Source: Crocinitomicaceae bacterium (GTDB lineage: Bacteria; Bacteroidota; Bacteroidia; Flavobacteriales_D; Crocinitomicaceae). From it: a stretch of 64,000 bases of DNA. The notes beneath the pieces were generated by a model. That model was not told the DNA's origin and searched no databases. It saw only the letters and a program-made list of their open reading frames with translations. The DNA lies in the NCBI GenBank assembly GCA_021325675.1, contig JAJTCM010000005.1, positions 62,001-126,000 of the forward strand. The letters are read 5' to 3'. Shown piece after piece: positions 5,878 to 21,700 of the stretch; the first letter of the stretch is position 1, and each line of letters begins with the position of its first letter. A program made the translations under genes and the position numbers.

Positions 5878-7464
5878 ATGAAAAAAACATTACTTCTTTT
5901 ACTCAGCTCCCTTAGTTTTACAACTTTCACCCAAACTGCAAGCCAGGTGAAAACTTTCTCAGGACTGAACTCGGTCGATTACCTGATCAATTACAATAAC
6001 AAGCTTTATTTCGCCGCCAACGATGGCCAGAACGGGATGGAGCTCTGGACTTCCGACGGAACAACTCAAGGAACGACGCTCCTGAAGGATATCGTGAGCG
6101 GATCAACCTCCAGCTCACCAGAACAGCTCAAGGTATGCGGTGATAAATTTTATTTCATTGCAAAAGACCCGCAAAACACAAGCAGAAAAGCACTTTTTGT
6201 ATCAAACGGCACTTCAGCAGGAACGATCAAGCTCATTACTTTATCGGCCAATACCGCCGGCATTGCAGCATCCAATTATTTCCAGTATTACAGTGGGAAT
6301 GCGAAGGTTTTTTTCAAGCATGACGACGGAACCGGCTTTGAGCTTTGGTCAACTGACGGAACAGTAGCAGGAACCGCTTTGGTACGCAGTATTTTTCCAG
6401 GTGCGGGCAGCAGTAATCCTGATCACTTTTTCGAATTCGTTGGCAAGCTGTTCTTTAACGCAGAAGATGACCTTAACGGGAAAGAGCTTTGGTCAACTGA
6501 CGGGACTAGCGGCGGCACAATGCTGGTAAACCCGGGGAATGTGAACTCCACCCAATTCGGACCACGTTATTTTACAGAATACGAGGGGCGCTTCTATTAT
6601 GAATATGATGGTGAGCTTTGGCGTTCAAACGGAGGAAACGCAGCTTTGTTTGTTCAAATCAACCCTGATTTTAAAAGTGAGCCTAAAAACTTCCTTGTTT
6701 ATGGTGACAAATTATATTTTGCAGCTAAAAGAAATGGTCTCGCCCATGAGCTTTTTGTAACAGACGGCACGCAGGCTGGAACAGTACCTGTCTTATCGGG
6801 CATGAATGGTTACTACACCAGCTCGTTAACACCTGCTTTTGGAAAAATCTTTTTCAGCGGGAATTCAGACCTGGAAGGACAAGAATTGTGGTCTTCAGAC
6901 GGAACACCCGACAATACGAATCTTTATTACAACCTGGCAGGGGACAACCCGAATGTGAGCAGTGGGCTCATCGTTGACAATACCATGCTGGTGGTAAACG
7001 ACACCTTATATGTAAGCGGCAGCCAGACAAGCAACGTACAGGAGCTTTTCTACACAACAGGAGCGGACAACACCCTGACAAACATTGACTTCGCGGGGGC
7101 TTCAAGCCAGGATGCGGATCCGTCCGATTTTGTAAACCTGAACAACCAGCTCTATTTTATTGCAAAGTATACCGCTAACCAGGGATTATATAAAGTTGGA
7201 AGCTCACAGCAGGCAGGATTGGGACAAGCTCAAAAAGAATCAATCCAGGTTTACCCGAACCCGGTATCCACCACACTTAACATTCATTCCCCGAACAAAC
7301 CATCCGCTGTTGATGTTCAGTCAGTTGATGGACGTTCAGCTGTTATCCAGTGGGATGCGGAGCAGAAAAGCATAGACATGGAAAAGCTTGCCCCGGGAAG
7401 CTATACAGTTCACATCACTTTCGACGACAACACAAATTTCACTTATAAAGTGATTAAATTGTAA
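5878..7464 (+). CDS. ELWxxDGT-repeat T9SS-sorted secreted protein
   Basis: This 528-residue exported protein has an N-terminal signal peptide (MKKTLLLLLSSLSFTTFTQT) and at least five copies of the ELWxxDGT repeat: MELWTSDGT, FELWSTDGT, KELWSTDGT, HELFVTDGT and QELWSSDGT. Such repeats form beta-propeller-like blades in Bacteroidota surface proteins of unknown function. The C-terminus is a T9SS type A sorting domain starting VYPNPVSTTLNIHSPN and ending YKVIKL, so the protein should cross the outer membrane through the T9SS and be anchored or released there. A near-match -7 box TATTTTTA lies about 40 bases upstream. It has its own strong terminator and appears monocistronic. The ligand or enzymatic role cannot be told from the sequence. 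Confidence 0.9.
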   Translation: MKKTLLLLLSSLSFTTFTQTASQVKTFSGLNSVDYLINYNNKLYFAANDGQNGMELWTSDGTTQGTTLLKDIVSGSTSSSPEQLKVCGDKFYFIAKDPQNTSRKALFVSNGTSAGTIKLITLSANTAGIAASNYFQYYSGNAKVFFKHDDGTGFELWSTDGTVAGTALVRSIFPGAGSSNPDHFFEFVGKLFFNAEDDLNGKELWSTDGTSGGTMLVNPGNVNSTQFGPRYFTEYEGRFYYEYDGELWRSNGGNAALFVQINPDFKSEPKNFLVYGDKLYFAAKRNGLAHELFVTDGTQAGTVPVLSGMNGYYTSSLTPAFGKIFFSGNSDLEGQELWSSDGTPDNTNLYYNLAGDNPNVSSGLIVDNTMLVVNDTLYVSGSQTSNVQELFYTTGADNTLTNIDFAGASSQDADPSDFVNLNNQLYFIAKYTANQGLYKVGSSQQAGLGQAQKESIQVYPNPVSTTLNIHSPNKPSAVDVQSVDGRSAVIQWDAEQKSIDMEKLAPGSYTVHITFDDNTNFTYKVIKL

Positions 7465-7485: not shown

Positions 7486-7515
7486 AAAGGCTGCATAAAA
7501 AATGCAGCCTTTTTT
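7486..7515 (+). terminator. Strong intrinsic terminator
   Basis: A perfect 11-bp stem (AAAGGCTGCAT / ATGCAGCCTTT) with an AAAAA loop is followed by a T run; it ends the ELWxxDGT gene. Confidence 0.9.
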
Positions 7516-7665: not shown

Positions 7666-7673
7666 TAAATTTG
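7666..7673 (+). promoter_or_regulatory. Promoter -7 box (TAAATTTG) of the first small-protein/T9SS unit
   Basis: TAAATTTG lies 23 nt before the ATG of the small secreted protein, in an AT-rich spacer of about 180 bases. No well-placed -33 TTG is visible. Confidence 0.55.
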
Positions 7674-7696
7674 TCTTGAACTTCATCTTAAAACAT

Positions 7697-8158
7697 ATGA
7701 AAAAACAGTATTTGCTCTCTTACTGCTTTTTCGCTTTTTCATTCGGTGTTTTTTCACAAAAGGAACAAAGCGATCAGTTAGCATCATGGATTGATGAGCA
7801 CCCCGACGTTATTTTCATTGAGGAAACCAACCTTAAAAACTTCAGCGATGAAGAATTGGCTAAGTTTTCCGGAAAATACATCGTTTTCAATAATGAAATC
7901 GGTCTCCACGACATTTACAAGTATGATCCGTCTTTCCAGGAGAAAGCTGATTACAAGAATGATTCTGAAACCCCTGAAATCAAGCAGGCTAATACGATTA
8001 AAGACTGGATGGGCAAGCACCAGCATGTAAAAGTGGTGACCCGTTCTGAATTTAACGCCCAGCCTATTGAGGTCCAGCGTGAGTATGCGGAAAAAAAATG
8101 CCTGATTTTAAACGGGGAAAAGATCACCGTTGAGGATATTAACAACTACCAATACTAA
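7697..8158 (+). CDS. Small exported protein with two tandem ~55-residue repeats
   Basis: I do not recognise a family. The 153-residue product begins with a Sec signal peptide (MKKQYLLSYCFFAFSFGVFSQ). The mature part is two related units, QLASWIDEHPDVIFIEE..., ending ...YIVFNNEIGLHDIYKY, and TIKDWMGKHQHVKVVTR..., ending ...CLILNGEKITVEDINNYQY. Each reads as helix, strand, helix, strand and then a closing aromatic pair. The start was set at the ATG downstream of the TAAATTTG promoter; a TTG 21 bases earlier sits next to the promoter box. The next gene starts 7 bases after the stop, so the two are probably cotranscribed. The product may be a periplasmic or surface accessory of that T9SS protein, which is inference only. 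Confidence 0.8.
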   Translation: MKKQYLLSYCFFAFSFGVFSQKEQSDQLASWIDEHPDVIFIEETNLKNFSDEELAKFSGKYIVFNNEIGLHDIYKYDPSFQEKADYKNDSETPEIKQANTIKDWMGKHQHVKVVTRSEFNAQPIEVQREYAEKKCLILNGEKITVEDINNYQY

Positions 8159-8165
8159 AATCCTT

Positions 8166-10439
8166 ATGAAAAATCTTTTACTCATCAGTTTTGTTTTTAT
8201 TTGTAGCCTCGCATTTGCGGGTGGCGGTGCCCCGGCTAATGACAATTGTGCCGGTGCGGTAGCTTTTCCTGCGATACCTACCAATGGAACAACTGCCTGT
8301 TTGACCAACCGGACAACAAACAACGCTACCAACTCCAATGTTACACCAACCGGCTCTTGTACTTCAAATACAGGAACACCGGATGATGATATTTGGTTTA
8401 CTTTCGTTGCCACAACTACTACGCATATCCTTGAAGCTACTTACGACAGCGGAAGCAGCTCGGATATTTACTGGCAGGTTTTTTCAGGTGCCTGCGGCGC
8501 TTCCATGACCTCAATCTTATGTACGGACAATAACGCCGGTGGAACAATAAGCGGACTGACTGTCGGGAATACTTACCGTATCAGGATGTATACTTATTTC
8601 AATGGTGATGATACCCAATATGACATTTGTATGTCAAGCCCGCCAGCAGCGCCAGGAAACGATAATTGTACCGGGGCAACTGCTTTCCCGGCAATTCCTA
8701 CAAACGGGAGCACAGCATGCCTGAGCAATCAATCCAGTGCCGGCGCTACAAATTCCAACGTAACACCAAGCGGATCCTGTACCTCCAATTCAGGAACCCC
8801 GAATGATGATGTATGGTTCAGGTTTACCGCCACTACAACGGCCCTGGAATTGAGCACCTCATACGACTCCGGTGAATCGGATGTTTACTGGCAGGTCTTT
8901 TCAGGAGGATGCGGCGCAACTATGACATCTATTCTGTGTACGGACAACAACAGCGGAGGAACCTTCAGCGGTCTCACCATCGGTAACACGTATTACGTAA
9001 GAATGTACGCCTATTATTCAGGAGACAATACCCAATATGATATATGCCTGAGTGCACCACCACCACCACCGGCGAATGATGAATGCACCGGGGCAGCCAA
9101 CCTGACTGCTTCATCAACAACAAGCTGCACTTCTTCTTTAAACGGAACCGTTGAGGACGCTCTTGGGTCTTCCCAGGCAAACTCATGCTGGGGTACCCCT
9201 GATGATGATGTCTGGTACAGGTTTACTGCCACCAGCACAAGCCACACGGTAACATTATCCAATGTTTCCGGTTCAACAACAGATATGTACCATTCAGTTT
9301 TCGGCGGTACATGCGCTTCTATCGGCGCCTCTCTGATTTGTAATGACAGTGACGCAAGTACAGTCTCAGGACTTACAATCGGTAACGTATATTATGTTCG
9401 TGTTTTTACTTACACCTCGACCAGCGGTCAGACAAGTGACTTTACGATTTGTGTAACCACTCCCCCTCCTCCACCGGCAAATGCCAATTGTGCAACACCG
9501 GCACAGTTCTGTCCTACAAGCCCTGTAACAATTGCAGCAGTTACAAATACAACTGCTCAAACAGGGAATAATTATGGATGCCTGGGGTCACAGCCAAACC
9601 CGTACTGGTATTATTTTACGATGAGCCAAAACGGAAGCATCAACCTCGATTTGAATGCACCTTCGGATGTGGATTTCGCCCTTTGGGGACCATACAATAC
9701 ACTTACTGCTGCTCAAAATGACTGCGGAAGCATGCCTGCGCCGATTGATTGCAGCTATTCCACTGCCGGACTTGAAAGCATTGATGTTGCCAGCGGGAAT
9801 GCCGGCAGGGTATATGTTTTACTTATTACCAATTACGCCAACACCTCACAAAATATTTCCCTGTCTTTTGATGATCCGAACTCATCCGGAAACTGTGCCT
9901 GCACGCCTTTACCTGTTGAGCTGATTAATTTCCATGTGTCCTTATTCGGGCAGAAGAATATTGTAAAATGGACCACCAAATCAGAAAAAAACAATGATTA
10001 TTTCCTTGTTCAGCGTTCCAAAGACGGTATTGCCTGGGAAACTTTAAAAATGATCAACGGACACGGTAACTCTACCAGTGAAATTTCTTACCAGTACAAC
10101 GATGAGAGACCGCTTGCAGGAATTTCTTACTACCGCCTGAAACAAGTTGACCACGACGGGAACTTTAAATATTCCGAGATCCAGATCATTGACCGCAAAA
10201 CAACGAACGGCTACAGGCTTTATCCTCAACCCGCAACTGACGAGCTCAAAATCACAAGTGAGATCGGTGAAATTTCCTCTCTGGAGATTATCGACCTGCT
10301 TGGCAAAAAATCAGATGTGGGCTACAAAGTTATAAACGGCGAATACATTGTTGATATGTCAATGTTCAATAACGGGATCTACATCCTGAATATTTACAAC
10401 GGACAAGAAGTTATTTCTGAAAAAATTATCAAAAACTAA
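8166..10439 (+). CDS. T9SS-sorted protein with four PPC-like repeats
   Basis: This 757-residue secreted protein has a signal peptide (MKNLLLISFVFICSLAFA) and then four beta-rich modules of about 135-140 residues beginning NDNC, NDNC, NDEC and NANC (coding positions 8238, 8658, 9075 and 9480). Modules 1 to 3 share PDDD(I/V)W(F/Y)xFxA and the ending GNTYxxRM/VxxY, the pattern of pre-peptidase C-terminal (PPC-like) domains. Proline-rich linkers (APPPPPPAN) separate the later modules. The segment LPVELINFHV...VKWTT with YYRLKQVDHDG follows, a common fibronectin-like region just before T9SS sorting domains, and the C-terminus is a type A CTD (RLYPQPATDELKI...EKIIKN). It is probably a surface adhesin or binding protein; no catalytic domain is visible. 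Confidence 0.9.
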   Translation: MKNLLLISFVFICSLAFAGGGAPANDNCAGAVAFPAIPTNGTTACLTNRTTNNATNSNVTPTGSCTSNTGTPDDDIWFTFVATTTTHILEATYDSGSSSDIYWQVFSGACGASMTSILCTDNNAGGTISGLTVGNTYRIRMYTYFNGDDTQYDICMSSPPAAPGNDNCTGATAFPAIPTNGSTACLSNQSSAGATNSNVTPSGSCTSNSGTPNDDVWFRFTATTTALELSTSYDSGESDVYWQVFSGGCGATMTSILCTDNNSGGTFSGLTIGNTYYVRMYAYYSGDNTQYDICLSAPPPPPANDECTGAANLTASSTTSCTSSLNGTVEDALGSSQANSCWGTPDDDVWYRFTATSTSHTVTLSNVSGSTTDMYHSVFGGTCASIGASLICNDSDASTVSGLTIGNVYYVRVFTYTSTSGQTSDFTICVTTPPPPPANANCATPAQFCPTSPVTIAAVTNTTAQTGNNYGCLGSQPNPYWYYFTMSQNGSINLDLNAPSDVDFALWGPYNTLTAAQNDCGSMPAPIDCSYSTAGLESIDVASGNAGRVYVLLITNYANTSQNISLSFDDPNSSGNCACTPLPVELINFHVSLFGQKNIVKWTTKSEKNNDYFLVQRSKDGIAWETLKMINGHGNSTSEISYQYNDERPLAGISYYRLKQVDHDGNFKYSEIQIIDRKTTNGYRLYPQPATDELKITSEIGEISSLEIIDLLGKKSDVGYKVINGEYIVDMSMFNNGIYILNIYNGQEVISEKIIKN

Positions 10440-10468
10440 ACATAGTTTAAATAAACACCATTTTAAAG

Positions 10469-10497
10469 CGGGCCGATCTGAAATCGGCCCGTTTTTT
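10469..10497 (+). terminator. Strong intrinsic terminator
   Basis: A perfect 9-bp GC-rich stem (CGGGCCGAT / ATCGGCCCG) with the loop CTGAA is followed by six T. It ends the first small-protein/T9SS unit. Confidence 0.92.
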
Positions 10498-10768
10498 GTT
10501 TATAACTTGTTGACAACGTCAATCTTCATAAAATTGTAAATAATCCATTAGCAAAAAAACGACTTTTATCGAACTAAACCGTTTTTTAGTCTATAAATTA
10601 AGTGAATTACAATAAATATTCGATGATCTATTACAAAATATTCATCAAAAGATATGGTTTGTTCGTTCAGAAATAACATATATATAATGACTTCATTACA
10701 TTTTGTTAAATTTTTATTGCAAATAAGTTAATTTTTTACATTTGTCGAAACTTCATTCATTTTAAACC
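10498..10768. other. AT-rich intergenic region between the two small-protein/T9SS units
   Basis: The gap from the preceding stop codon is 329 bases including the terminator. The remaining 271 bases are very AT-rich and contain no open frame of note. Only a promoter at the right end was recognised. Confidence 0.6.
10717..10744 (+). promoter_or_regulatory. Promoter of the second small-protein/T9SS unit (TTG-N17-TACATTTG)
   Basis: A -33 TTG (10717-10719) and a -7 TACATTTG (10737-10744) are 17 bases apart, a good fit to the Bacteroidota promoter. The box ends 24 nt before the ATG. Confidence 0.7.
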
Positions 10769-11146
10769 ATGAGAAAAAAGCTGACAACATTAGCAATCCT
10801 GGTAAGCGCTTTCACTTTGAATAGCTTTGCTGGTAACCAATTGCCCGACCTTCCTTTTACAATGTCTGCTCTTTCAACAGAAAACCCAACTGAGCTTATT
10901 GTGACTTTTGAAAACCTCACAATGAAACAGTATGAAGACCTCGATAATGCGCTGGCAGATATCCAGGGTGTAAAAATGGTCGGTTATTGTCAGAAGCAAA
11001 ATTGCTACTACTTTAATTATGACAGAACAATTTATAAAACAGGTGATGAAGCATTTGAAGCGCTTGCCATTAAAACAAAATTGTATCATCCGCTCATGAA
11101 GACAGGGGTTACCATCGCCCTGATTCAGACACTTTGTCAACAATAA
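10769..11146 (+). CDS. Small exported protein of unknown function
   Basis: The 125-residue product has a Sec signal peptide (MRKKLTTLAILVSAFTLNSFAG). The mature part includes ELIVTFENLTMKQYEDLDNALADI and then a cysteine-containing strand (MVGYCQKQNCYYFNY), which could be a beta-alpha-beta, ferredoxin-like fold. Three cysteines remain in the mature protein (two in CQKQNC and one near the end). I do not recognise a family. A good promoter sits directly upstream and the large T9SS gene starts 41 bases downstream with no promoter of its own, so they look like one transcript. This repeats the organisation of the preceding unit, although the two small proteins are not obviously similar in sequence. 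Confidence 0.75.
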   Translation: MRKKLTTLAILVSAFTLNSFAGNQLPDLPFTMSALSTENPTELIVTFENLTMKQYEDLDNALADIQGVKMVGYCQKQNCYYFNYDRTIYKTGDEAFEALAIKTKLYHPLMKTGVTIALIQTLCQQ

Positions 11147-11187
11147 ATAAACCAATTGGATTTAAAAACGCCATTTAATTCATAAAT

Positions 11188-14100
11188 ATGAAAAAAGTTT
11201 ACTTAATTCTTTTATTATTACTCACTGCATTTGGTTCTTCGGAGCTTTTTGCCGGTGCCACTAATTACCCTTTTACGTCCAATAGCGTAACCCCGGGTGA
11301 TGTTACAGGCTGTGCCGTTACGAATTATACATTCACTCAAACAACAGGAAACAACAACAACGCTAAAATTGCTGCCGGGGTAACGGTAACAATTGTCTTT
11401 CCTGCAGGTGTCAACCTTACAACGGCAACAATGCTTGGAAGTACCTTTAGAGGAAGCGCGATTCTTCTTGGCTGGAACATCACCGGTCAGACATTGACGT
11501 TCACAACACCAACCACTGTTGGTAAAAACGTTTCTTTCAATATTGTCATTGCCAATGTTACCAATGGAAATACTACTGCGGCCAACGCCAGTGTTTCGAT
11601 CCCCAATATGAGTGGTGGTACAGACAGTGAAACCAATTACGCAATTTCAACTACAGCTTGTCCGGTCGTCCCGACAAATGACGGCTGCGGCGCCCCTACC
11701 GTATTAACCCCAGCTGCTGCCGGGTCATCCGCCTGTACCACAACGAGCGGAACAACTTTCGGTGCTACAGCGTCTACAACTGCAGTCTGTACAGGTCAGG
11801 CAGACGATGATGTCTGGTACCGTTTTACGGCTAACAGCACTTATCACCAGGTAACAGTTGACGGTGTAGCTAACTTTAATGCTGTTGTACAGGTATTATC
11901 CGGAACATGTGCCGGAACATATACTTCCATGGCTTGTGTCAATGCTACAGCAAGTGACGGTATCGAAACGGCAAACCTGACAGGATTAACAGTCGGTACA
12001 CAATATTTTATCCGTATCTATCACAATGGTGTAGGTGCGGGTGTTTTGGCAGCCAACTCATTTACAGTATGTGTTACAAGTGCGCCACCGGCAGCCGGTT
12101 GTGCCGGTATCGGAGCAGGAAACTTAACTGCAGCTTCTTTACCGTACACATCAGGTGCACAAACAACTTGTGGCGCCGGTAATGAAATCACATCTACGAA
12201 CTCCGCTGTTTGCGGCTCAACATTATACTATGGAGGTGAAGACAAAGTAATCAGCTTTACTCCTTCAACAACAGGTAGTATTTCAGTAAACTTAACATCA
12301 ACAGGTTCATACGTTGGTATGATGCTCTACCAGGGTTGTCCTGTATCAGGAGGTACCTGTGTGGCTAATGCCCAAAGCTACTCCGGTAACCAGTCTATCG
12401 GTTGTGCGCCGGTTACAGCAGGACAAACTTACTACCTGGTAGTAGACTCCTGGCCAACGCCGACATGTAACCCGTTCAACGTAACGATCAGTGCACCGAC
12501 TGCAGGTATTCCTCCGGGAACAACTTGCGCCAACCCGGTTAACATGACTTTGCCTTATACTGCAAACAACGAATCAACGCTTTGCTTTGGTGACGATTAT
12601 ACAAACGCAACAGCCGGTGTTGGAACGACTTCTTACATGTCCGGTGAAGATAAAGTATATAAATTTGTTACTACCGGTCCTGACTGTATCAGTGTTTCCA
12701 TCACTAACGCCAATACAGGCTATGTTGGTTTCCACGTATTCTCGGGATGTCCGGGTGCAGGCGGAACTTTAGTTGGAAGAGGTGAATACGCTACCAGCGG
12801 CGCCCTTTCCGGGTCTGTGACGCTTCCGGCGGCTGGTACATATTACCTCATCGTGGATACGTATGCTGCGCCAAGCACCGTAAACTATAACATCAGCGTT
12901 ACATCACTTGGCTCAGGCCCTGCAAACGACGCTATTTGTTCGGCTACCGCGCTGAGCTTAGGCACAGCTGCAGGTGGAGACAATAACTGTACAGGAAGTA
13001 CAGGTGAGCCGGCAAGCCCTGCGTGCTGGTCAACAGGTACAATGAATACTGTTTGGTATTCCGTTGTTGTTCCGGCATCCGGGAAACTGAGAGTCCGTGC
13101 AACAGCAGGTTCATTGACAAATCCACAAATTGCACTTTATACAGGAACATGCGCTTCTCCGGTTTACAATGCTTGTAACGACAACGTATCTTCCTGCTCC
13201 GGTTTCTACAGCAATGATGCTGAGATCCTCGTTACTTCAGGACTTGCAGCGGGCTCTACAGTTTTTATCCGCGTTGACGGCTATGCATCAGCAACCGGTA
13301 CTTTCTCAATCCTCGCTATTGACGGTAACAATACGATTACCCCGGTACCAGGACAGGATTGCGGCGACCCTAACCCGGTTTGCCAAACAGTTATGTCTGT
13401 ATCCAACCCTGGTTACTCCGGTTTCGGAAACATCTGTGACTTACCAACATCATACTGTTTGGCTTCAGGTGAAAGAAACGTAGTTTGGTACCGTGTTCCG
13501 GTTTCCGCAGCAGGTACATTAAACTTCGATGTTGTGCCGAATGACTTTGTTCACACTTCTGAAAGCGAAACGGATTATGACTTTGGTATCTGGGAAATCA
13601 CGGATGCAGGAGCAGTTGTTGCTACCTGCGCACAAATTGCTGCAGGAACAGCTCCACCGGATGCTTGTAACTACTCTTTCCTTGGTGTAACAGGTATCGG
13701 CGCCGGAGGTAACCCGCCAACCAGCTTACCGACTACAGTATGTCCTTCGTGTCCGGCAGGATATAATCCTTCCACTACTTACGCAGGAGCTTACGAGCCA
13801 ACAATGAATGCGGATGCAGGTGACGTTTACCTGATTGCAGTAAGTAACTTTATTTCCAGTACGGCAGGTTTCCGTATCCGTTTCTCCGGTACAGCAACCA
13901 TCGACTTCGCATCATCCCTTTCAAGTGCAGGTGGTGTAACCTGGTCTGGCGGTGACGTTAGCGGACCGACTACATGGACAGATGTTGACAACTGGGGAGG
14001 CTGTGCTGCTCCGGATTGTACAAGAGATGCTTATGTAGCTCCATTTAACAACCAGCCAATTCTTGTTACAGGAAATACTTATAACGTAAAAGATATTACG

Positions 14101-15762
14101 ATCCAGGCGGGTGCAACATTAACACTTCAGGCGAATTCAACACTGCAGGTTTGCGGTAACTTCTACAACTACGGTACATTGATTGCCGATCCGACGTCTA
14201 CCATTGTATTTATCGGAACGGCTGCCGCAGGACAGATTATTGCAGGAAACCTGACAGGTACAAGTAAATTCGGTAACCTTACCGTAACGAAAAACTCAGG
14301 AACAGGAACAGTTACCCTGAACAACGATATTGAAGTTGGCGGTAACCTGACAACATCCAATGCGAACAGTATCCTGAACTCTAACGGAAAATACGTTACT
14401 TTGGGCAAAAACTTCGCCAACTACGGTGGACACACTACCTTCACTAACATTGGCGCTACCGGTACCCTTGAATTCAACGGTACAGGAGTTCAGAACTACG
14501 ATGAAAGCACAGGAACTACAGATACGCTGGCACTGAACTTTGTGATTGCCAATAACACGGCAGCAGCAGGAAGCGGTATTACCCTTATAAACTGCAACAT
14601 GTCGATTAAGGCAACAACAGGTACCCTTACGCTTACTGCCGGAACAATTACAACCAGCGCCAGCTACCAGGTACGTGTATTCAACAAAACTGCAGCTTGC
14701 GTAAGCACAGGAGTAACAGCGAGCTTTGTTGACGGTAACCTGAGAAGGTACCTGAATGCATCCGGTGATTACAACTGGCCGGTTGGTAATGTGGCAAAAG
14801 GTTTCCAGCGTGCAAAAACGAATTTCTCTGCGAACACTATCAATTATATTGATTCCAGGTTTGATGTATGGCCTTCAACGCCATATACACAGGCAGCAGC
14901 AGAATGTACGTATACTTTTGACCAGGCATCCGAAGATAACGGTTACTGGACCCTGAAATCATATACAGGTACCGGTGTTCTCGGAGGAACAGCTACGTAT
15001 GACTGTACGCTTTACCCGCTGAATGCGACCAATACTGCCGGTATGTCAGCATGGACGATTATCAAGCGCCCTTCTACAACTGCAATTGACGGTACAGGAT
15101 GGGTATTGAACGGAACTTGTTCAGGTGCAGGAACTGCAACCCAGGTTACAAGAACAGGAATGACTAACTTCTCCTTCTTCGCTGTTGACCAGGCTTTGGC
15201 TACCCTGCCGGTTGAGCTGCTTTCCTTTACGGGTCAGAATGAAGGTGCACGCAACCTCTTGAAATGGTCAACTGCTTCCGAAAGGGAAAATGACTTCTTT
15301 ACCCTGGAGAGATCCCAGAACGGGTATGATTTCAGCTTCCTGGCTGAAGTTGATGGTGCAGGAAACAGCAATGCAATCCTGAACTATCATTCTTACGATT
15401 TCAATCCTTACGCAGGAATTACTTACTACAGGCTGAAACAAACTAACTTCAACGGACAATCCAGCTATTCAAACATCGTTGCACTGACAAACGAGCTGGA
15501 TCAAATTACCGTGACGGAAGCTTACCCGAACCCAACCGATGGTGACGTAAGTGTTGATTTCTTCAGTCCTGTAAACGGTAACCTGAACATCAAGATGTAT
15601 GACAAGACAGGAAGATTGATCCTTGAGGAAAGCAAAACAATTAACAGTGGTAACAACCTGGTTAACCTTGCTATTGAAAACCTCGCGAAAGGAGTTTACA
15701 CACTTGAACTTGAGTTTGATAAAGCAAACTTTAAAAATATCCAAAAACTGATCAGAAACTAA
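11188..15762 (+). CDS. Large multidomain T9SS-sorted protein with PPC-like modules
   Basis: This 1524-residue secreted protein has a signal peptide (MKKVYLILLLLLTAFGSSELFA). After an N-terminal beta-rich domain (about residues 22-160) come several PPC-like modules recognisable by DDDVWYRFTAN, GEDKVISFTPS, GEDKVYKFVTT, NTVWYSVVVP and NVVWYRVPVS. Near residues 925-1150 is a different repetitive beta region (GATLTLQANSTLQVCGNFYNYGTL and relatives) resembling right-handed beta-helix or autotransporter-like sequence. The LPVELLSFTGQ...LLKWSTASE segment precedes a type A T9SS CTD (AYPNPTDGDVSVDF...IQKLIRN). It is probably an extracellular adhesin or matrix protein. It shares its domain plan with the T9SS protein two genes upstream, and its terminator overlaps the next gene's promoter. 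Confidence 0.9.
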   Translation: MKKVYLILLLLLTAFGSSELFAGATNYPFTSNSVTPGDVTGCAVTNYTFTQTTGNNNNAKIAAGVTVTIVFPAGVNLTTATMLGSTFRGSAILLGWNITGQTLTFTTPTTVGKNVSFNIVIANVTNGNTTAANASVSIPNMSGGTDSETNYAISTTACPVVPTNDGCGAPTVLTPAAAGSSACTTTSGTTFGATASTTAVCTGQADDDVWYRFTANSTYHQVTVDGVANFNAVVQVLSGTCAGTYTSMACVNATASDGIETANLTGLTVGTQYFIRIYHNGVGAGVLAANSFTVCVTSAPPAAGCAGIGAGNLTAASLPYTSGAQTTCGAGNEITSTNSAVCGSTLYYGGEDKVISFTPSTTGSISVNLTSTGSYVGMMLYQGCPVSGGTCVANAQSYSGNQSIGCAPVTAGQTYYLVVDSWPTPTCNPFNVTISAPTAGIPPGTTCANPVNMTLPYTANNESTLCFGDDYTNATAGVGTTSYMSGEDKVYKFVTTGPDCISVSITNANTGYVGFHVFSGCPGAGGTLVGRGEYATSGALSGSVTLPAAGTYYLIVDTYAAPSTVNYNISVTSLGSGPANDAICSATALSLGTAAGGDNNCTGSTGEPASPACWSTGTMNTVWYSVVVPASGKLRVRATAGSLTNPQIALYTGTCASPVYNACNDNVSSCSGFYSNDAEILVTSGLAAGSTVFIRVDGYASATGTFSILAIDGNNTITPVPGQDCGDPNPVCQTVMSVSNPGYSGFGNICDLPTSYCLASGERNVVWYRVPVSAAGTLNFDVVPNDFVHTSESETDYDFGIWEITDAGAVVATCAQIAAGTAPPDACNYSFLGVTGIGAGGNPPTSLPTTVCPSCPAGYNPSTTYAGAYEPTMNADAGDVYLIAVSNFISSTAGFRIRFSGTATIDFASSLSSAGGVTWSGGDVSGPTTWTDVDNWGGCAAPDCTRDAYVAPFNNQPILVTGNTYNVKDITIQAGATLTLQANSTLQVCGNFYNYGTLIADPTSTIVFIGTAAAGQIIAGNLTGTSKFGNLTVTKNSGTGTVTLNNDIEVGGNLTTSNANSILNSNGKYVTLGKNFANYGGHTTFTNIGATGTLEFNGTGVQNYDESTGTTDTLALNFVIANNTAAAGSGITLINCNMSIKATTGTLTLTAGTITTSASYQVRVFNKTAACVSTGVTASFVDGNLRRYLNASGDYNWPVGNVAKGFQRAKTNFSANTINYIDSRFDVWPSTPYTQAAAECTYTFDQASEDNGYWTLKSYTGTGVLGGTATYDCTLYPLNATNTAGMSAWTIIKRPSTTAIDGTGWVLNGTCSGAGTATQVTRTGMTNFSFFAVDQALATLPVELLSFTGQNEGARNLLKWSTASERENDFFTLERSQNGYDFSFLAEVDGAGNSNAILNYHSYDFNPYAGITYYRLKQTNFNGQSSYSNIVALTNELDQITVTEAYPNPTDGDVSVDFFSPVNGNLNIKMYDKTGRLILEESKTINSGNNLVNLAIENLAKGVYTLELEFDKANFKNIQKLIRN

Positions 15763-15781
15763 TCGGTTTAAAATTAACAGG

Positions 15782-15811
15782 AAAGGTTGTCAGAAATGGC
15801 AACCTTTTTTT
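15782..15811 (+). terminator. Intrinsic terminator overlapping the next promoter
   Basis: An 8-bp stem (AAAGGTTG / CAACCTTT) with a 10-base loop runs into seven T. The T-tract ends where the next gene's TATTTTTG box begins. Confidence 0.8.
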
Positions 15812-15822: not shown

Positions 15823-16581
15823 GTGAATGAAATTACGCTGATAGGATCCGGAAACGTGGCCTGGCATTTATGTCCTGCTTTTTTAAGCCTGGGGTTCAGC
15901 GTAAGCCTTTTTTCCCGAAATACTGCCGCTTCTAAGGAATTTCAAGATAAATTTGACGTACAGCTCATCCCTGGTATCGAAAGCGTCCGGGACCAGTTGG
16001 TAATCCTTTGTGTAACCGATTCGGAAATTGCAGCTGTTTTAAATCTCCTGGACAGCAGTAACCGTGTTGCCTATACTTCCGGAACGACAGAGCTGAATTC
16101 TCTCCCCCACCGGGAAAACCTGGGTGTTTTTTATCCTTTGCAAACTTTTTCCAAAGCACGCCGGCTTGATTTGTTTGAAGTCCCGTTTTTTATTGAAGCG
16201 ACAAACACCTATTTTGCACAGGAGCTTTTCGACCTGGCCTGGAAATTATCGCACAAGGTGGAATTTGCGGATTCCGGGACAAGAAAGGAATTGCACCTGG
16301 CTGCCGTTATCAGTAACAATTTTACCAATTTCCTGCTGACGCTGGCGAAAGAATACCTGGAAGCCCGCAATTTATCCTGGGGCCACCTCGGGCCTCTTGT
16401 ACGTGAAACCGTTGAGAAAGCCCTGGAGATCGGACCGGAAAAGGCGCAAACAGGCCCCGCAACACGCGATGACAAAAACACCATTCGAAAACATCAGGAA
16501 ATGCTCAGCCCTCCCCTAAAAGAAATTTATCACTTACTGAGCAATGCCATTCTAGAACACAGCAAACATGAAAAGCTATAA
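15823..16581 (+). CDS. Rossmann-like and DUF2520 domain protein
   Basis: The product (252 residues from GTG) starts with a Rossmann nucleotide-binding strand and loop (EITLIGSGNVAWHL), followed by a ProC/F420-oxidoreductase-like helical C-terminal DUF2520 domain containing LHLAAVISNNFTNFLL and GPATRDDKNTIRKHQEML. Proteins of this family look like NAD(P)-dependent dehydrogenases, but the substrate is not established. The GTG was chosen because it follows a TATTTTTG box by 4 nt; an upstream in-frame ATG would lie inside the preceding terminator stem. The gene overlaps kdsC by 14 bases, implying coupled translation. Confidence 0.85.
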   Translation: MNEITLIGSGNVAWHLCPAFLSLGFSVSLFSRNTAASKEFQDKFDVQLIPGIESVRDQLVILCVTDSEIAAVLNLLDSSNRVAYTSGTTELNSLPHRENLGVFYPLQTFSKARRLDLFEVPFFIEATNTYFAQELFDLAWKLSHKVEFADSGTRKELHLAAVISNNFTNFLLTLAKEYLEARNLSWGHLGPLVRETVEKALEIGPEKAQTGPATRDDKNTIRKHQEMLSPPLKEIYHLLSNAILEHSKHEKL

Positions 16582-17086
16582 AGAAATCCTTCCTTCAATC
16601 ACAACTTTTATCCTGGATGTTGACGGTGTCCTGACTGACGGCGAAGTACTGCTGATTGACGGCCAGGTATGCCGAAAGCTCCATTCAAAAGACGGTTATG
16701 CGCTGCAGTATGCCTCCAAAATGGATTACAACATTTTCATTATTACAGGCGGAAGCTCCGAAGACGTCAAAACACGATTGATAAATCTTGGGGTAAAGGA
16801 AGTTTTTCTGAAATCCAGTCACAAGCTCCCGGTTTACGAAGAGCTGAAACAAAAATACGGCTTGAAGGACGAAGAAATTCTCTATATGGGTGATGATATC
16901 CCTGACTACGACGTGATGAAAAAGGTAGCCCTGGCCGCATGTCCGCAGGATGCCTGTCCTGAAATTAAAGCTATTTCTCATTATCAATCACCGATTAACG
17001 GCGGAAAGGGCTGCGTGCGGGACGTGATCGAGCAAACGCTCAAAGTACAGGAACAATGGATGAAAGACAAGGCTTTTACCTGGTAA
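16568..17086 (+). CDS. kdsC: HAD-family KDO-8-phosphate phosphatase, KdsC-like
   Basis: KdsC hydrolyses 3-deoxy-D-manno-octulosonate 8-phosphate to KDO for the lipopolysaccharide core. The 172-residue protein has the HAD motif I LDVDGVLTDG with nucleophile Asp17 and Asp19, the motif II threonine in IITGGSSEDV, a lysine in FLKSSHK, and motif IV MGDDIPDYDV. It has no cap domain, as expected for the C0-type KdsC/YrbI group, and its length matches the family. It overlaps the DUF2520 gene and ends 1 base before the convergent rluA-like gene. Other YrbI phosphatases with similar motifs act on N-acylneuraminate 9-phosphate, but KdsC is the more likely role. Confidence 0.88.
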   Translation: MKSYKEILPSITTFILDVDGVLTDGEVLLIDGQVCRKLHSKDGYALQYASKMDYNIFIITGGSSEDVKTRLINLGVKEVFLKSSHKLPVYEELKQKYGLKDEEILYMGDDIPDYDVMKKVALAACPQDACPEIKAISHYQSPINGGKGCVRDVIEQTLKVQEQWMKDKAFTW

Positions 17087-17087
17087 T

Positions 17088-17801
17088 TCAGGCGAGCTCT
17101 TTTTCAAACCAAAGCCACAAAGAATCTGCGGGAACAGGCGCTGTAACAGAAATCCGCTCTTTAGAAGTCGGATGCTCAAACTCAAGCCTGCGTGCATGAA
17201 GGCAAATCGAACCGTCAGGATTGCTGCGTTTCGCACCGTATTTTACATCTCCTTTGATATGACAGCCAATCGTAGCTAGCTGCGACCGGATCTGGTGATG
17301 CCGGCCCGTTTCGAGCCCCACTTCAAGCAAACTGTAATTATCTGATTTTTTTAGCAGGCGATAAGACAAAACCGCTTTTTTAGACCCGGGGCTTTCGTTT
17401 TCAGAAGCGTAGGATTTGTTCTGCTTTTCGTTTTTCTTTAAAAAATGGACCAACTTTCCGCTGCTTTTGGCCGGATCGCCTTCCACTATCGCCCAATAGC
17501 ATTTGGAAGTGGTTTTCTCCTGGAACTGCTTGTTTAAACGCTCCAGGGCCTTGCTGGTGCGTGCAAAAACCAAAGCCCCGCTGGTAGGTCGGTCCAAACG
17601 GTGAACCACACCGCAGAACACATTTCCGGGCTTAACATATTTTTCTTTTAAATAAGCTTTGATCTTATCCGGGAGCGTTTCATCCCCCGTCCGGTCGCCC
17701 TGCGAAATATCGGATGATTTTTTATTGATCACCAAAACATGGTTATCCTCAAAAAGGATTTCAAGACCGTATTTTTGCGCGAAATCGTTTCCTGCGGCCA
17801 C
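17088..17801 (-). CDS. RluA-family RNA pseudouridine synthase
   Basis: The 237-residue enzyme has the RluA signature HRLDRPTSGALVFARTS with the catalytic Asp, and GLETGRHHQIRSQLATIGCHIKGDVKYGA near the C-terminus. Such enzymes convert specific uridines in rRNA or tRNA to pseudouridine in the cytoplasm; the target cannot be decided here. There is no S4 domain, so it resembles the short RluA/TruC type. The start codon is GTG, 4 bases after the panB stop, so the two are probably cotranscribed. Its stop lies 1 base from the convergent kdsC stop, and no terminator was seen between them. Confidence 0.9.
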   Translation of the reverse strand: MAAGNDFAQKYGLEILFEDNHVLVINKKSSDISQGDRTGDETLPDKIKAYLKEKYVKPGNVFCGVVHRLDRPTSGALVFARTSKALERLNKQFQEKTTSKCYWAIVEGDPAKSSGKLVHFLKKNEKQNKSYASENESPGSKKAVLSYRLLKKSDNYSLLEVGLETGRHHQIRSQLATIGCHIKGDVKYGAKRSNPDGSICLHARRLEFEHPTSKERISVTAPVPADSLWLWFEKELA

Positions 17802-17805
17802 TTGT

Positions 17806-18621
17806 TTAATATTGCTCGGATTCGTTCGGGAAATCGCCGCTTCTTACGTCGGAAATATATTTTTCGAAAGCCGTCATCATCTGTTCGTACAAATTGTCGT
17901 ATTTGCGGAGAAAACGCGGGCTGAATTCGTTGTTAATACCAAGCATATCGTGTACAACGAGCACCTGGCCGTCCACTCCCCCGCCTGCACCGATTCCTAT
18001 GATCGGAATGGAAACGGCACCGGCAACTTTTTCTGCCAGGCTCGCCGGGATTTTCTCCAGGACAATGGCAAAGCATCCGGCTTCTTCCAGCGCTTTGGCG
18101 TCTTCAAGCAAACGGGCAGCTTCATCTTCTTCCCTCGCCCGCACAACGTAAGTACCGAACTTATAGATCGATTGCGGCGTGAGTCCCAAATGCCCCATCA
18201 CCGGGATTCCAGCTGTTAAAATACGTTTGATAGACTCGATGATTTCCTGGCCGCCTTCCAGTTTTACTGCATGTGCACCGGATTCCTTCATGATCCGGAT
18301 CGCATTGGAAAGCGCCTCTTTGGAATTTCCCTGGTAGGAGCCAAAAGGCATATCTACAACGATCAGCGCACGGTTAACAGCACGCACAACCGACGAAGCA
18401 TGATAAATCATCTGGTCCAGCGTAATCGGGAGGGTTGTTTCATGTCCCGCCATTACATTCGACGCGGAATCGCCAACGAGAATAACGTCCATTCCGGCTT
18501 CATCGATAATTTTCGCCATCGAAAAATCGTAGCCTGTCAGCATGGAAATTTTCTCTCCCCGCTGCTTCATTTCCTGTAGTACGTTGGTTGTGACGCGTTT
18601 AATGTTTTTATGAACTGACAT
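17806..18621 (-). CDS. panB: 3-methyl-2-oxobutanoate hydroxymethyltransferase (ketopantoate hydroxymethyltransferase)
   Basis: PanB makes ketopantoate from 2-oxoisovalerate and methylenetetrahydrofolate, the first committed step of pantothenate and coenzyme A synthesis. The 271-residue protein has the hallmarks [38 protein letters not shown] (metal and substrate site), [20 protein letters not shown] and [19 protein letters not shown]. The length is normal for the family. A weak TATTTTTA box lies about 15 bases upstream of the ATG. It leads a two-gene transcript with the rluA-like gene. Confidence 0.97.
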
Positions 18622-18747
18622 GTCGCTTTTTTTGGTAAAAATATGAAAAAAGGGAGGAACCGCTGTAGCTAAACGTATTTTATTTCAGTTTTAGGGCCTT
18701 TTCAAATATTTTATACGGGTGGTAAAGGCATTTCAGCAAACAAAGCT

Positions 18748-18755
18748 TATTTTTG
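18748..18755 (+). promoter_or_regulatory. Promoter -7 box (TATTTTTG) of the M1 peptidase gene
   Basis: TATTTTTG ends 14 nt before the ATG and lies downstream of an alternative in-frame start, which supports the shorter protein. Confidence 0.6.
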
Positions 18756-18769
18756 TTCAAACATTACGT

Positions 18770-21700
18770 ATGAAACTTATTCTTGCCTCCTCATTTTTAC
18801 TGCTTTCCACCCTGCTTTTTTCTCAGTCTTACTGGCAGCAGGAAGTAAATTATACCATCCAGGTGAAGCTGAACGACCGCGATCACAGCTTATCTGCTTT
18901 TGAAAGCTTCGAATACATCAACCATTCTCCTAATACGCTGGATTTCATCTACATTCACCTGTGGCCGAACGCTTATAAAAACGGGAATACGGCTTTGGGA
19001 AAACAATTGTATGCTGACAAAGAAAAAGAACTCACTTTCGGACATGATTCTATACGCGGCTGGATTGATTCACTCGATTTTAAAATTAACGGGCAGGCAG
19101 CTAAATGGGAATATGATCCGGAACACATTGATATCTGCAAGCTTTACCTCAGCGCACCGCTCCGATCAGGAGAAAGAATTACGGTTTCAACTCCTTTTAA
19201 AGTCAAAATCCCAAGCGGTGAAATTTCCCGTCTCGGCCATATCAATCAGTCTTACCAGATCACGCAATGGTATCCCAAACCGGCCGTATACGACAAAAAC
19301 GGCTGGAACCAGATGCCTTACCTCAACCAGGGCGAATTTTATTCGGAATACGGATCTTTTGATGTGAGCATTACCTTGCCGCAAAATTATGTTGTGGGCG
19401 CAACCGGCGATTTGCAAACCGCATCTGAGCTGAACTTTTTAAATGAGCGTTTTGAACAGACGAAAACCCGGATCCCGAAATTTGAGGAAAAAGCCAAAAA
19501 ACCCGGACCGGACTTTGGTTTCCCGGTATCATCCCAGCAATGGAAAACAATTCGTTACACTCAAAAAAATGTACACGATTTTGCCTGGTTTGCCGACAAA
19601 CGCTTCGAAGTGCTCAGAGGCGAAGTAGAATTGCCGCATTCCAAACGCAAGGTAACGAGCTGGGCTATGTTTACGCCACAAAACATGAACGTATGGCGCG
19701 ATGCCATCGAATATATCAACGACGGAACGTATTATTATTCTTTGTGGAACGGTGATTATCCCTACAACCAGGTTACGGCCATTGACGGTACCATTTCTGC
19801 GGGCGGCGGAATGGAATATCCGAATGTTACTGTAATTGGCAACACGAATTCCAAAATGGACCTGGAAATTGTAATCGTCCATGAAGTCGGCCACAACTGG
19901 TTTTATGGGATCCTGGGCTCGAATGAGCGCGTTCACGGATGGATGGATGAAGGCTTGAATACGTTGAACGAAATGCGCTACGTGGAAACAAAATACCCCG
20001 GAAATAAATATCTTTCAGACAGGGTATTCGGCGGAATGTTCCATTTGAACGACCTCGACCACCACGATTCCGGCGATATCGGTTTCCGTTTTATTTCTAT
20101 TCTCGGTGAAGATCAGCCGCTGGAAACGCATTCAGCAGATTTTACTTCACTTAATTATGGCCTGATCATGTACCAGAAAACAGGTCTTGTGTTCCATTAT
20201 CTCAAATCGTACCTGGGAGACGAGCTTTTCAATAAAACCATGCAGGCGTATTTCAACGAATGGAAATTCAAACATCCGCAACCCGAAGACCTGCAGGCCA
20301 GCCTTGAAAAATACAGCGGAAAAAAACTGGATTGGCTCTTTGAAGACCTCATTAAAACGACCAATCACATTGATTATAAAATTAAAGGACTTAAATCCGG
20401 GGAAAACCAATCCGTAGTTACGCTGAAAAACAAAGGCCAGGTTAATGGCCCGATTCCCGTTACGGTATATCACAAGGGTGAAAAAACAACAAGTTGGGTT
20501 GAAACGCCCGGAAAAGGCAAATCACAGCTCACTTTCAATTTTGAGATTGATTCGGCACAGATCGATCCCGACAGGCAAATCCCGGAGCTGAACCGTTCCA
20601 ACAACAACTGGAACCGGAGCTGGCTTTTCAATAAAAAAGAGCCACTGAAACTGGAATTCCTGAACGGAGATATGGAAGCAAAACGTTCCAATAACTTCTG
20701 GCTCCCTGTAATTGCAGGGAATTCACAGGATAAGCTGATGCTCGGCCTGGGGATTCACAACCTCGGTATTCCGTTCAAAAAATACCAATACCTGCTTGCT
20801 CCGCTTTATTCTTTCGGCAGAAAAAACATTTCGGGGATTGGTGAATTCAGCCTGACTTCACTTCCGAAACGTAATTTCAAGCTGATCAGGACCGGGGTTT
20901 CCATCAAAAGCTTCAGTAACAATGATATCAGGCCTGAAGACAATTATTATGCAAGTGTTTCGCCTTATATCTTTATGAAATTAGGCCAGCGTAAAAATGC
21001 CACACCATTCTTCAATACGCTTTTATTGCAAGCCATTTACCGCTATGACCAGGTTACAGCGTCTAAAGTTGAACAGGCAGGTGCAATTCTCAAATACAAC
21101 TTGTATTATGATAAGCCTGATTTTGGTTTCAAGCTGGAATTACGCACAGATTATATGAACAACCTGCAGAATGCTAATGAAATGAACCGTCTGATGGGCG
21201 AAACCAGCTTCAAATACAAATACATCCGCAACAAACACAATTGCTGGATGGAGCTCAGGCTTTTCGCCGGAACTTTCCTGGGACGCAAGCTTGATCCCGT
21301 TATTTCAGGTACTTCAGCACCATATTACAATGAAGTGGAATACTTTGGCTATACGCTCGCGCTGAACGGTATGAGCGGCGCTGGTGATATCTTTACCGAA
21401 GATTACTATTTCTCGCGTACAGGCAGCAATTTTGGCGCTAACCAACGCGCTGAAAACATGGGTAACGTAAAAGTAAACGGCAATTTCGGCCTGACACAAA
21501 AATGGCTTTTTGCAGCGAATTATTACCAGGAATTGCCAATCAAACCAAAAGTCCTGGGAATTTTTGCAGATTATGGTGTTTTCCACAATGGTACAGAAGC
21601 TGAACCTGTTTTCAATACAGGGATCGGGATCAGGCTGGGAACCGTCTGTGGATTTTATTTCCCCGTATGGATGAGCAAAAACCTGGAGAATAGCTTTGGT

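Follow-up and report, generated by a model that had tools for sequence, protein, structure and literature searches.

Large T9SS cargo proteins with a conserved M domain are usually encoded behind unrelated families of small, predicted exported proteins

Introduction

Why should two neighboring T9SS cargo genes of a Crocinitomicaceae bacterium each stand directly behind a small gene for a predicted exported protein, when the two small proteins do not resemble each other? The question arose in a 64,000-nucleotide stretch of contig JAJTCM010000005.1 (assembly GCA_021325675.1, positions 62,001 to 126,000), hereafter called the window. The available text of one account holds the T9SS CTD to be necessary and sufficient, such that any periplasm-targeted protein fused to it could be secreted (PMC10202324); type B cargo additionally has a shuttle, according to the available part of another (PMC12618676). 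The T9SS partners named in the accessible portions of four papers are PorV, PorP/SprF-like shuttles, and the translocon parts SkpA and PorD (PMC12618676, PMC9143113, PMC10202324, PMC10994853), and those portions make no mention of a small exported protein encoded upstream of a cargo. Among the titles and abstract openings covered by our literature search, which took in few subscription papers, we found none describing T9SS cargo genes preceded by a small exported gene. If one large cargo class did have dedicated exported partners, the T9SS pathway would gain an extra step and many small hypothetical proteins would acquire testable functions, with the cargo domain described below, termed M, serving as a handle for finding such pairs.

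Results

Two adjacent small–large gene units

The original prediction placed two consecutive units in the window, each consisting of a small gene and a large T9SS gene. Its coordinates, protein lengths (153 and 125 aa for the small proteins), promoter-like sites, LPVEL segments, and CTDs all check out, as do the gaps of 7 bases between small A and large A and 41 bases between small B and large B. The description of the small proteins as unalike also stands, small A and small B having no detectable sequence similarity. The features of both units are as follows, with the LPVEL segments read from the sequence.

7486..7512 (+), terminator-like hairpin preceding unit A
7666..7673 (+), TAnnTTTG promoter-like site of unit A, 23 bases 5' of the ATG
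7697..8158 (+), small A, 153 aa, signal-peptide-like start, internal tandem repeat of ~55 residues
8166..10439 (+), large A, 757-aa T9SS cargo with GBD modules, M domain, LPVEL, and type A CTD
9072..9449 (+), best GBD_T9SS_assoc stretch of large A, residues 303-428
9471..9899 (+), M domain of large A
9909..9923 (+), LPVEL segment of large A
10218..10430 (+), Por_Secre_tail CTD of large A, residues 685-755
10465..10495 (+), terminator-like hairpin separating unit A from unit B
10737..10744 (+), TAnnTTTG promoter-like site of unit B, 24 bases 5' of the ATG
10769..11146 (+), small B, 125 aa, signal-peptide-like start, predicted ferredoxin-like (HMA-like) fold without CxxC
11188..15762 (+), large B, 1524-aa T9SS cargo with GBD, divergent M domain, LPVEL, and type A CTD
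11674..12060 (+), GBD_T9SS_assoc of large B, residues 163-291
13354..13680 (+), divergent M domain of large B, residues 723-831
15205..15219 (+), LPVEL segment of large B
15523..15732 (+), Por_Secre_tail CTD of large B, residues 1446-1515
15779..15810 (+), terminator-like hairpin past unit B

Given a TAnnTTTG site 23 to 24 bases before each small gene and hairpins before, between, and after the units, units A and B are probably two separate transcripts. The TAnnTTTG motif by itself is weak evidence, as it occurs 69 times in the window against 56.2 expected. Terminator-like sites in the region number 10 against 8.4 expected, and the longest stems belong to the three hairpins flanking the two units. 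The gene 3' of unit B encodes a DUF2520/F420_oxidored protein. On the other side, between secA and unit A, positions 5878-7464 of the window encode a T9SS protein with ELWxxDGT repeats (TIGR04534, seven stretches).

Domains of the large proteins

Both large proteins match the T9SS CTD model TIGR04183 (38.0 bits for large A and 32.1 bits for large B; cut-off 23) and, by a crude hydropathy script, possess an N-terminal signal peptide. The modules that the original prediction called PPC-like are better described otherwise. A Pfam scan returned no match to PF04151 (PPC) at E ≤ 1 in either protein, and the label was rejected on that ground; PF23759 (GBD_T9SS_assoc) matches instead, with whole-protein scores of 91 bits for large A and 38.7 bits for large B (cut-off 27) and three copies above cut-off in large A. 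In relatives, PPC matches stay below cut-off.

Across the large proteins, the front modules vary, with GBD in most and CUB at locus L044. The constant part is a domain of ~148 residues with conserved Cys, which we term M; it is recognizable by NPSWYYLEI-like and DvDFaIWGPF-like stretches and in many loci stands directly after the signal peptide. Where M is found alone behind a signal peptide (L232), neither Pfam (E ≤ 0.1) nor NCBIfam returned a row for it; the copy in L044 has only sub-threshold PPC similarity, and no match to PDB sequences was obtained at E ≤ 1. M is a domain without a Pfam or NCBIfam name. It occurs in at least 79 of 150 genomes of the bacterium's own family (E ≤ 1e-12), in 94 of 249 genomes across the order (E ≤ 1e-15), and in 9 of 395 genomes of a phylum sample that includes the own genome. 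The scanned large proteins of A and B units carry type A CTDs, except at the broken locus L061, whereas most full-length units with partners of families C, D, and E (defined below) end in segments that, judged by eye, resemble gliding-motility (type B) CTDs. Hence the pairing does not track CTD type.

The small proteins

No Pfam or NCBIfam family reaches its cut-off in small A or small B. The Skp family in particular gave no row from either database at E ≤ 1 for these two proteins, and the small proteins scanned showed no CTD by Pfam or NCBIfam. The two halves of small A match each other at a level reached in only 14 of 1,000 shuffles, indicative of a tandem repeat; within the A family, the repeat is detected at p ≤ 0.01 in 12 of 17 members, the other five missing that level. 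The structural model of small A (mean pLDDT 83.9, pTM 0.44) consists of two similar alpha/beta halves. It has no Foldseek match under E 3 and a Z of only 2.3 on a repeat look, and this missing PDB match does not show that the fold is new. For small B (mean pLDDT 74.3), HMA chains top the Foldseek list, with a probability of 1.00, a TM to target of up to 0.73, and a best E of only 6.3e-3. HMA metal-binding domains hold a CxxC metal site. The predicted fold of small B is nearest to HMA domains of the MerP-like kind, but no CxxC is present in the five aligned sequences of its family.

Small genes are followed by large exported genes

The consistent pairing described for the window is real and wider than two units. 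Within the 150 own-family genomes, small A was matched in 19 and small B in 5 (own genome included in both counts); the candidate at L062 was dropped from the A homologues since it represented a signal-peptide-only match to a 370-aa protein. All 18 A loci outside the own genome, two of them in genome G070, sit 5' of a large exported gene. Both genes are visible at 16 of the 18, with gaps of -17 to 126 bases and four overlaps (the gap at L058 is counted from its ATG; the script value was -35). The contig ends after the first 66 codons of the large gene at L050, the small gene of L054 contains stops, and at L061, one of the 16, both genes look broken. Among the matches listed, M is present in 17 of the 18 large genes, the last being cut by the contig. 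By eye, the A units occupy at least nine different neighborhoods, of which a recurring one is beside secA or the DUF2520 gene that here follows unit B.

Small B has four other copies. Three precede a large gene of 1513-1519 aa by 14-15 bases, and the contig ends at the fourth, leaving 3/3 copies with a visible neighbor before a large exported gene. A reciprocal test was made with family C, the most populous of the partner families: 41 of 43 homologues (≥36 bits, 150 genomes) lie upstream of an M gene. One exception ends its contig (G135:C79), and the other (G003:C85) is followed after 2 bases by an exported GBD-like gene that is itself contig-cut. The search with family C returned 71 rows, 28 of them under 30 bits; one of these 28 (G064:C22) precedes an M gene, and the 27 that do not precede any M gene on our lists were taken as chance. 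The original prediction had allowed that the small genes might have unrelated neighbors elsewhere; for families A, B, and C, this is not what we found.

M genes are usually preceded by small exported genes

The association also holds when read from the large gene. Where small A is absent, M genes are preceded by another small exported gene at 47 of 53 loci (45 by script, and two by eye whose small proteins fall into the same families), these 53 being 40 loci fetched of 58 rows with at least 100 bits plus 13 others, out of at least 112 M rows tabulated. The six partnerless genes are those at L250 (which has a 74-aa exported ORF), L264 (a 53-aa ORF), L251, L255, L256, and L272. At further, mostly lower-scoring M loci, a partner was found at 23 of 28 (one by eye). 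This second set derives from 24 genomes chosen for mainly weaker M matches and covers 28 of 47 rows; 17 rows were without a locus, and L371 and L372 were omitted as already counted. Its five misses are L398, L385, and L400, plus L393 and L394, which are without visible 5' context or a clear start. The partnerless M genes at L398, L385, and L400 have a similar upstream gene (~190-210 aa), and they may be a set in which the partner was lost. The partnerless M proteins of L251 and L272 are short (~430 aa), and the 53- and 28-locus counts leave out most M genes of ~400-460 aa; a partnerless subclass of short M proteins is therefore possible.

These counts depend on a crude script that accepts 80-210 aa with a hydrophobic N-terminus and is not a dedicated signal-peptide predictor. 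The small genes at L265, L269, and L391 were accepted by eye, and those of the own genome at C8:380919 and C4:295605 by inspection. Elsewhere in the order (families f3, f8, and f11), a partner is present at all nine of the best-scoring M loci, matches from f6, f9, and f10 being left out; two of the nine are odd, in that the partner is short and 80 bases off (L288) or has a foreign N-terminus (L296). Three more own-family genomes likewise have a partner (L286, L290, and L294). In f17, a more distant family, a partner was counted at 2 of 12 M loci, two of the 12 being cut on the 5' side; this count excludes L312 and L318, where a 198-210-aa exported gene lies 73-74 bases upstream.

The original prediction raised the prospect that homologues of the large genes are usually unaccompanied. 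That is so for the GBD module alone, and mostly not so for M proteins within the order. GBD proteins without a partner are found in the own genome (L067 7375-13443 and L068 6143-9469) and elsewhere (L203-L205), and GBD was accordingly rejected as a marker of the pairing.

Comparison with other T9SS genes

The own genome bears a heavy T9SS load, with 142 CTD matches above the TIGR04183 cut-off in 3.57 Mb. Searched over 398 own-genome proteins, an M profile that included large A retrieved large A (6e-51), C8:380919 (1.9e-17), large B (6.4e-5), and C4:333436 (7.5e-4), the next E being 0.19; the limit for M-like proteins was fixed after these results had been seen. A fifth M gene, C4:295605, was retrieved by the family-wide and phylum-wide M searches; it encodes GBD modules and has no Pfam CTD match. 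All five M or M-like genes have a small exported neighbor (two accepted by inspection), compared with 4 of 124 other T9SS genes of the same genome by script (p 4.6e-7). Read leniently, the latter count becomes 7/124 (p 2.9e-6) because of three more genes, C1:787121, C4:175723, and C6:80715, where by eye a small, possibly exported gene stands 4-22 bases upstream.

The own-genome survey began from 148 CTD rows, of which 14 were omitted (nine for lying at contig ends or in short frames, five for scoring under the cut-off) and two were without a locus; 132 T9SS genes were examined, and 128 passed the filters. A small exported gene within 60 bases upstream was found for 7 of these 128, compared with 0 of 96 other genes (p 0.021). 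Against exported-only controls (0/47), the difference is not significant (p 0.19); given an operon-like neighbor, the T9SS excess has p 0.003. In other genomes, one strict script applied to all genes scored 16 of 21 M genes as paired; among genes without M, it did so for 0 of 37 that are exported and 1 of 69 others. The M genes that failed it are those of L048 and L051, whose start was unscored as a signal peptide, L059, with a gap of 96, and L054 and L061, with a broken small gene.

Partner families, inheritance, and selection

Comparison with phmmer sorts 109 partners into eight families of more than one member (A, 17 members; B, 5; C, 44; D, 7; E, 5; F, 4; G, 6; H, 13) plus eight singletons, the latter including three of the five own-genome partners. 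Profile comparisons of B with L218, A with C, H with B, H with L218, G with C, G with H, H with A, and H with C gave alignments that were weak or confined to the signal peptide and do not show that the partner families share an origin; A2 and A5 likewise had no similarity to each other. The small proteins of L224, L225, L226, and L228 carry, behind their family-C part, a C-terminal segment (...SIEEFAELSSTKQQAL...IIEQ) that resembles the family-A repeat (hhalign probability 70%).

Partner type and M phylogeny agree. Mapped onto a tree of 68 M domains, with L271 added to label E by eye, the partner labels change 13 times, where the least possible is 6 and the mean after shuffling is 32.3; none of 200 shuffles was as low. 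Paralogues within one genome keep different partners, as in G070 (A, A, and C) and G140 (A, C, and C). The small genes are under purifying selection, dN/dS being 0.10-0.50 in five of eight comparisons and dS saturated in the other three. Their replacement changes exceed those of M two- to fivefold in five of six comparisons and equal them in the sixth. In a test of 12 A-family pairs, made without a species-tree control, small-protein distances seem to track the fn3-like part of the large protein (rho 0.58) and the CTD (0.43) more closely than M (0.23, p 0.08).

Discussion

The pairing of M-domain large proteins with unrelated small exported families suggests a dedicated helper or partner of an undescribed kind. 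At these loci we observe gene order, closeness, association in both directions, joint inheritance, and selection on the small gene. Two-way association and shared inheritance are most simply accounted for if the small protein binds its own large protein in the periplasm, whether as an escort or as a subunit. The wider small/large pairing within the order also lends support to the earlier idea that the small protein is an accessory factor.

Our leading reading, held tentatively and with a little less than even confidence, is that each unit is a two-gene operon for the cargo-dedicated, exported escort of a T9SS protein. The first gene would yield a small, soluble, Sec-exported protein without a T9SS signal, its export suggested by the signal-peptide-like start; the second, presumably on the same transcript, would yield a large surface protein of several domains, M and a T9SS CTD among them. 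In the periplasm, the small protein would meet its own large protein and, by binding it directly, might keep it soluble, correctly folded, or inactive until the CTD brings it to the translocon. The 5' position of the small gene would suit a protein required ahead of its partner.

Several observations sit poorly with an escort. The predicted folds of the partners differ, and the partners for the most part evolve faster than M, which is odd for a chaperone acting on a conserved domain. Some M genes have no partner (6/53 and 5/28), f17 has one at only 2/12 loci, and the second pairs at L360 and L354 have a large protein without a detectable M. Given that small A distances seem to track the fn3-like part and CTD better than M, binding to M is not supported; together with the diversity of partners under a conserved M, this suggests that M may identify the class and yet not be where the partner binds.

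The unlike folds and rapid change would fit a variable surface subunit, and the same pairing evidence serves a reading in which the small protein is a lasting part of a surface structure. Such a subunit could ride through the T9SS without a CTD of its own, consistent with the Pfam and NCBIfam scans of the small proteins, or could join the large protein at the surface. However, a surface location of the small protein is conjectural, and no case of T9SS co-secretion or hitchhiking was found in the literature among the matches listed (titles and abstract starts). We consider this explanation rather unlikely.

Shared regulation alone, where the small exported proteins serve the same surface process independently and share only a transcript with the large ones, would be in keeping with some other T9SS genes that follow unrelated small exported genes. 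In the own genome, four non-M T9SS genes stand behind a small exported gene (C1:771979+, C1:234947-, C12:21121-, and C2:60227-), and at two of these sites the small gene looks, by eye, TonB_C-like and thioredoxin-like, respectively. Yet the M pairing is a two-way association across different genomic settings, and partner family is tied to M clade rather than to species, which would be hard to explain without a physical link; regulation alone is accordingly improbable. An immunity or inhibitor role, in which the small protein would block a harmful activity of the large one inside the cell, is very improbable: cognate pairs with many unlike partners do resemble toxin-immunity sets, and small B has a Tox-HDC match (E 0.048), but that match is below cut-off and on the small rather than the large protein, and the idea lacks support because no toxin domain turned up in the large proteins scanned with Pfam (no toxin family row at E ≤ 1 in large A or large B, nor at E ≤ 0.1 in seven relatives), which carry GBD, CUB, SprB-repeat, glycine-rich, and CTD matches and no toxin or enzyme family above its cut-off.

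The escort reading has a counterpart in another secretion pathway. Type III secretion uses dedicated chaperone and cargo pairs, and its chaperones act in the cytoplasm. The units described here are alike in that a small protein is encoded beside its cargo, with one partner per cargo, but differ in that the partners have signal-peptide-like starts. Within the T9SS, SprB and SprF (a type B CTD cargo and a PorP/SprF-like shuttle) are similar in that, according to the available text, the cargo gene adjoins the gene of its cognate partner and the pairs are specific (PMC12618676, PMC9143113). In the accessible part of the former source, PorP/SprF-like shuttle genes commonly lie directly downstream and the shuttle recognizes the CTD (PMC12618676), whereas the partner here is small, exported, and encoded upstream, and the cargo ends are type A or type-B-like. 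SkpA and PorD of the T9SS extended translocon resemble the proposed escorts as periplasmic T9SS translocon proteins; as far as the available text goes, however, they are parts of a common translocon (PMC10994853), whereas the partners here belong to many families, each tied to a cargo gene.

More broadly, and here we would speak of a possibility that is somewhat doubtful, partnered cargo may be a general, undescribed layer of the T9SS, with an M-marked class that, irrespective of CTD type, needs an upstream-encoded exported partner and with partners that have been repeatedly replaced. The replacements would then be unrelated folds (a tandem alpha/beta repeat, a ferredoxin-like fold, and others) under a cargo domain that stayed, and some partners may travel through the outer membrane attached to their cargo. 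If true, the repeated replacement of a partner under a conserved cargo domain would make a good case of protein pairs changing partners.

Small–large pairs also occur beyond those counted above. At L360 (2755-5152) and L354 (7806-10764), a second small-large exported pair lies just behind the first, as in the window; no M domain was detected in the second large proteins. In the own genome, a small exported gene of 135 aa (L067 15855-16262) stands 6 bases before a gene (16269-19634) for a 1121-aa secreted protein with, by eye, a type-B-like end.
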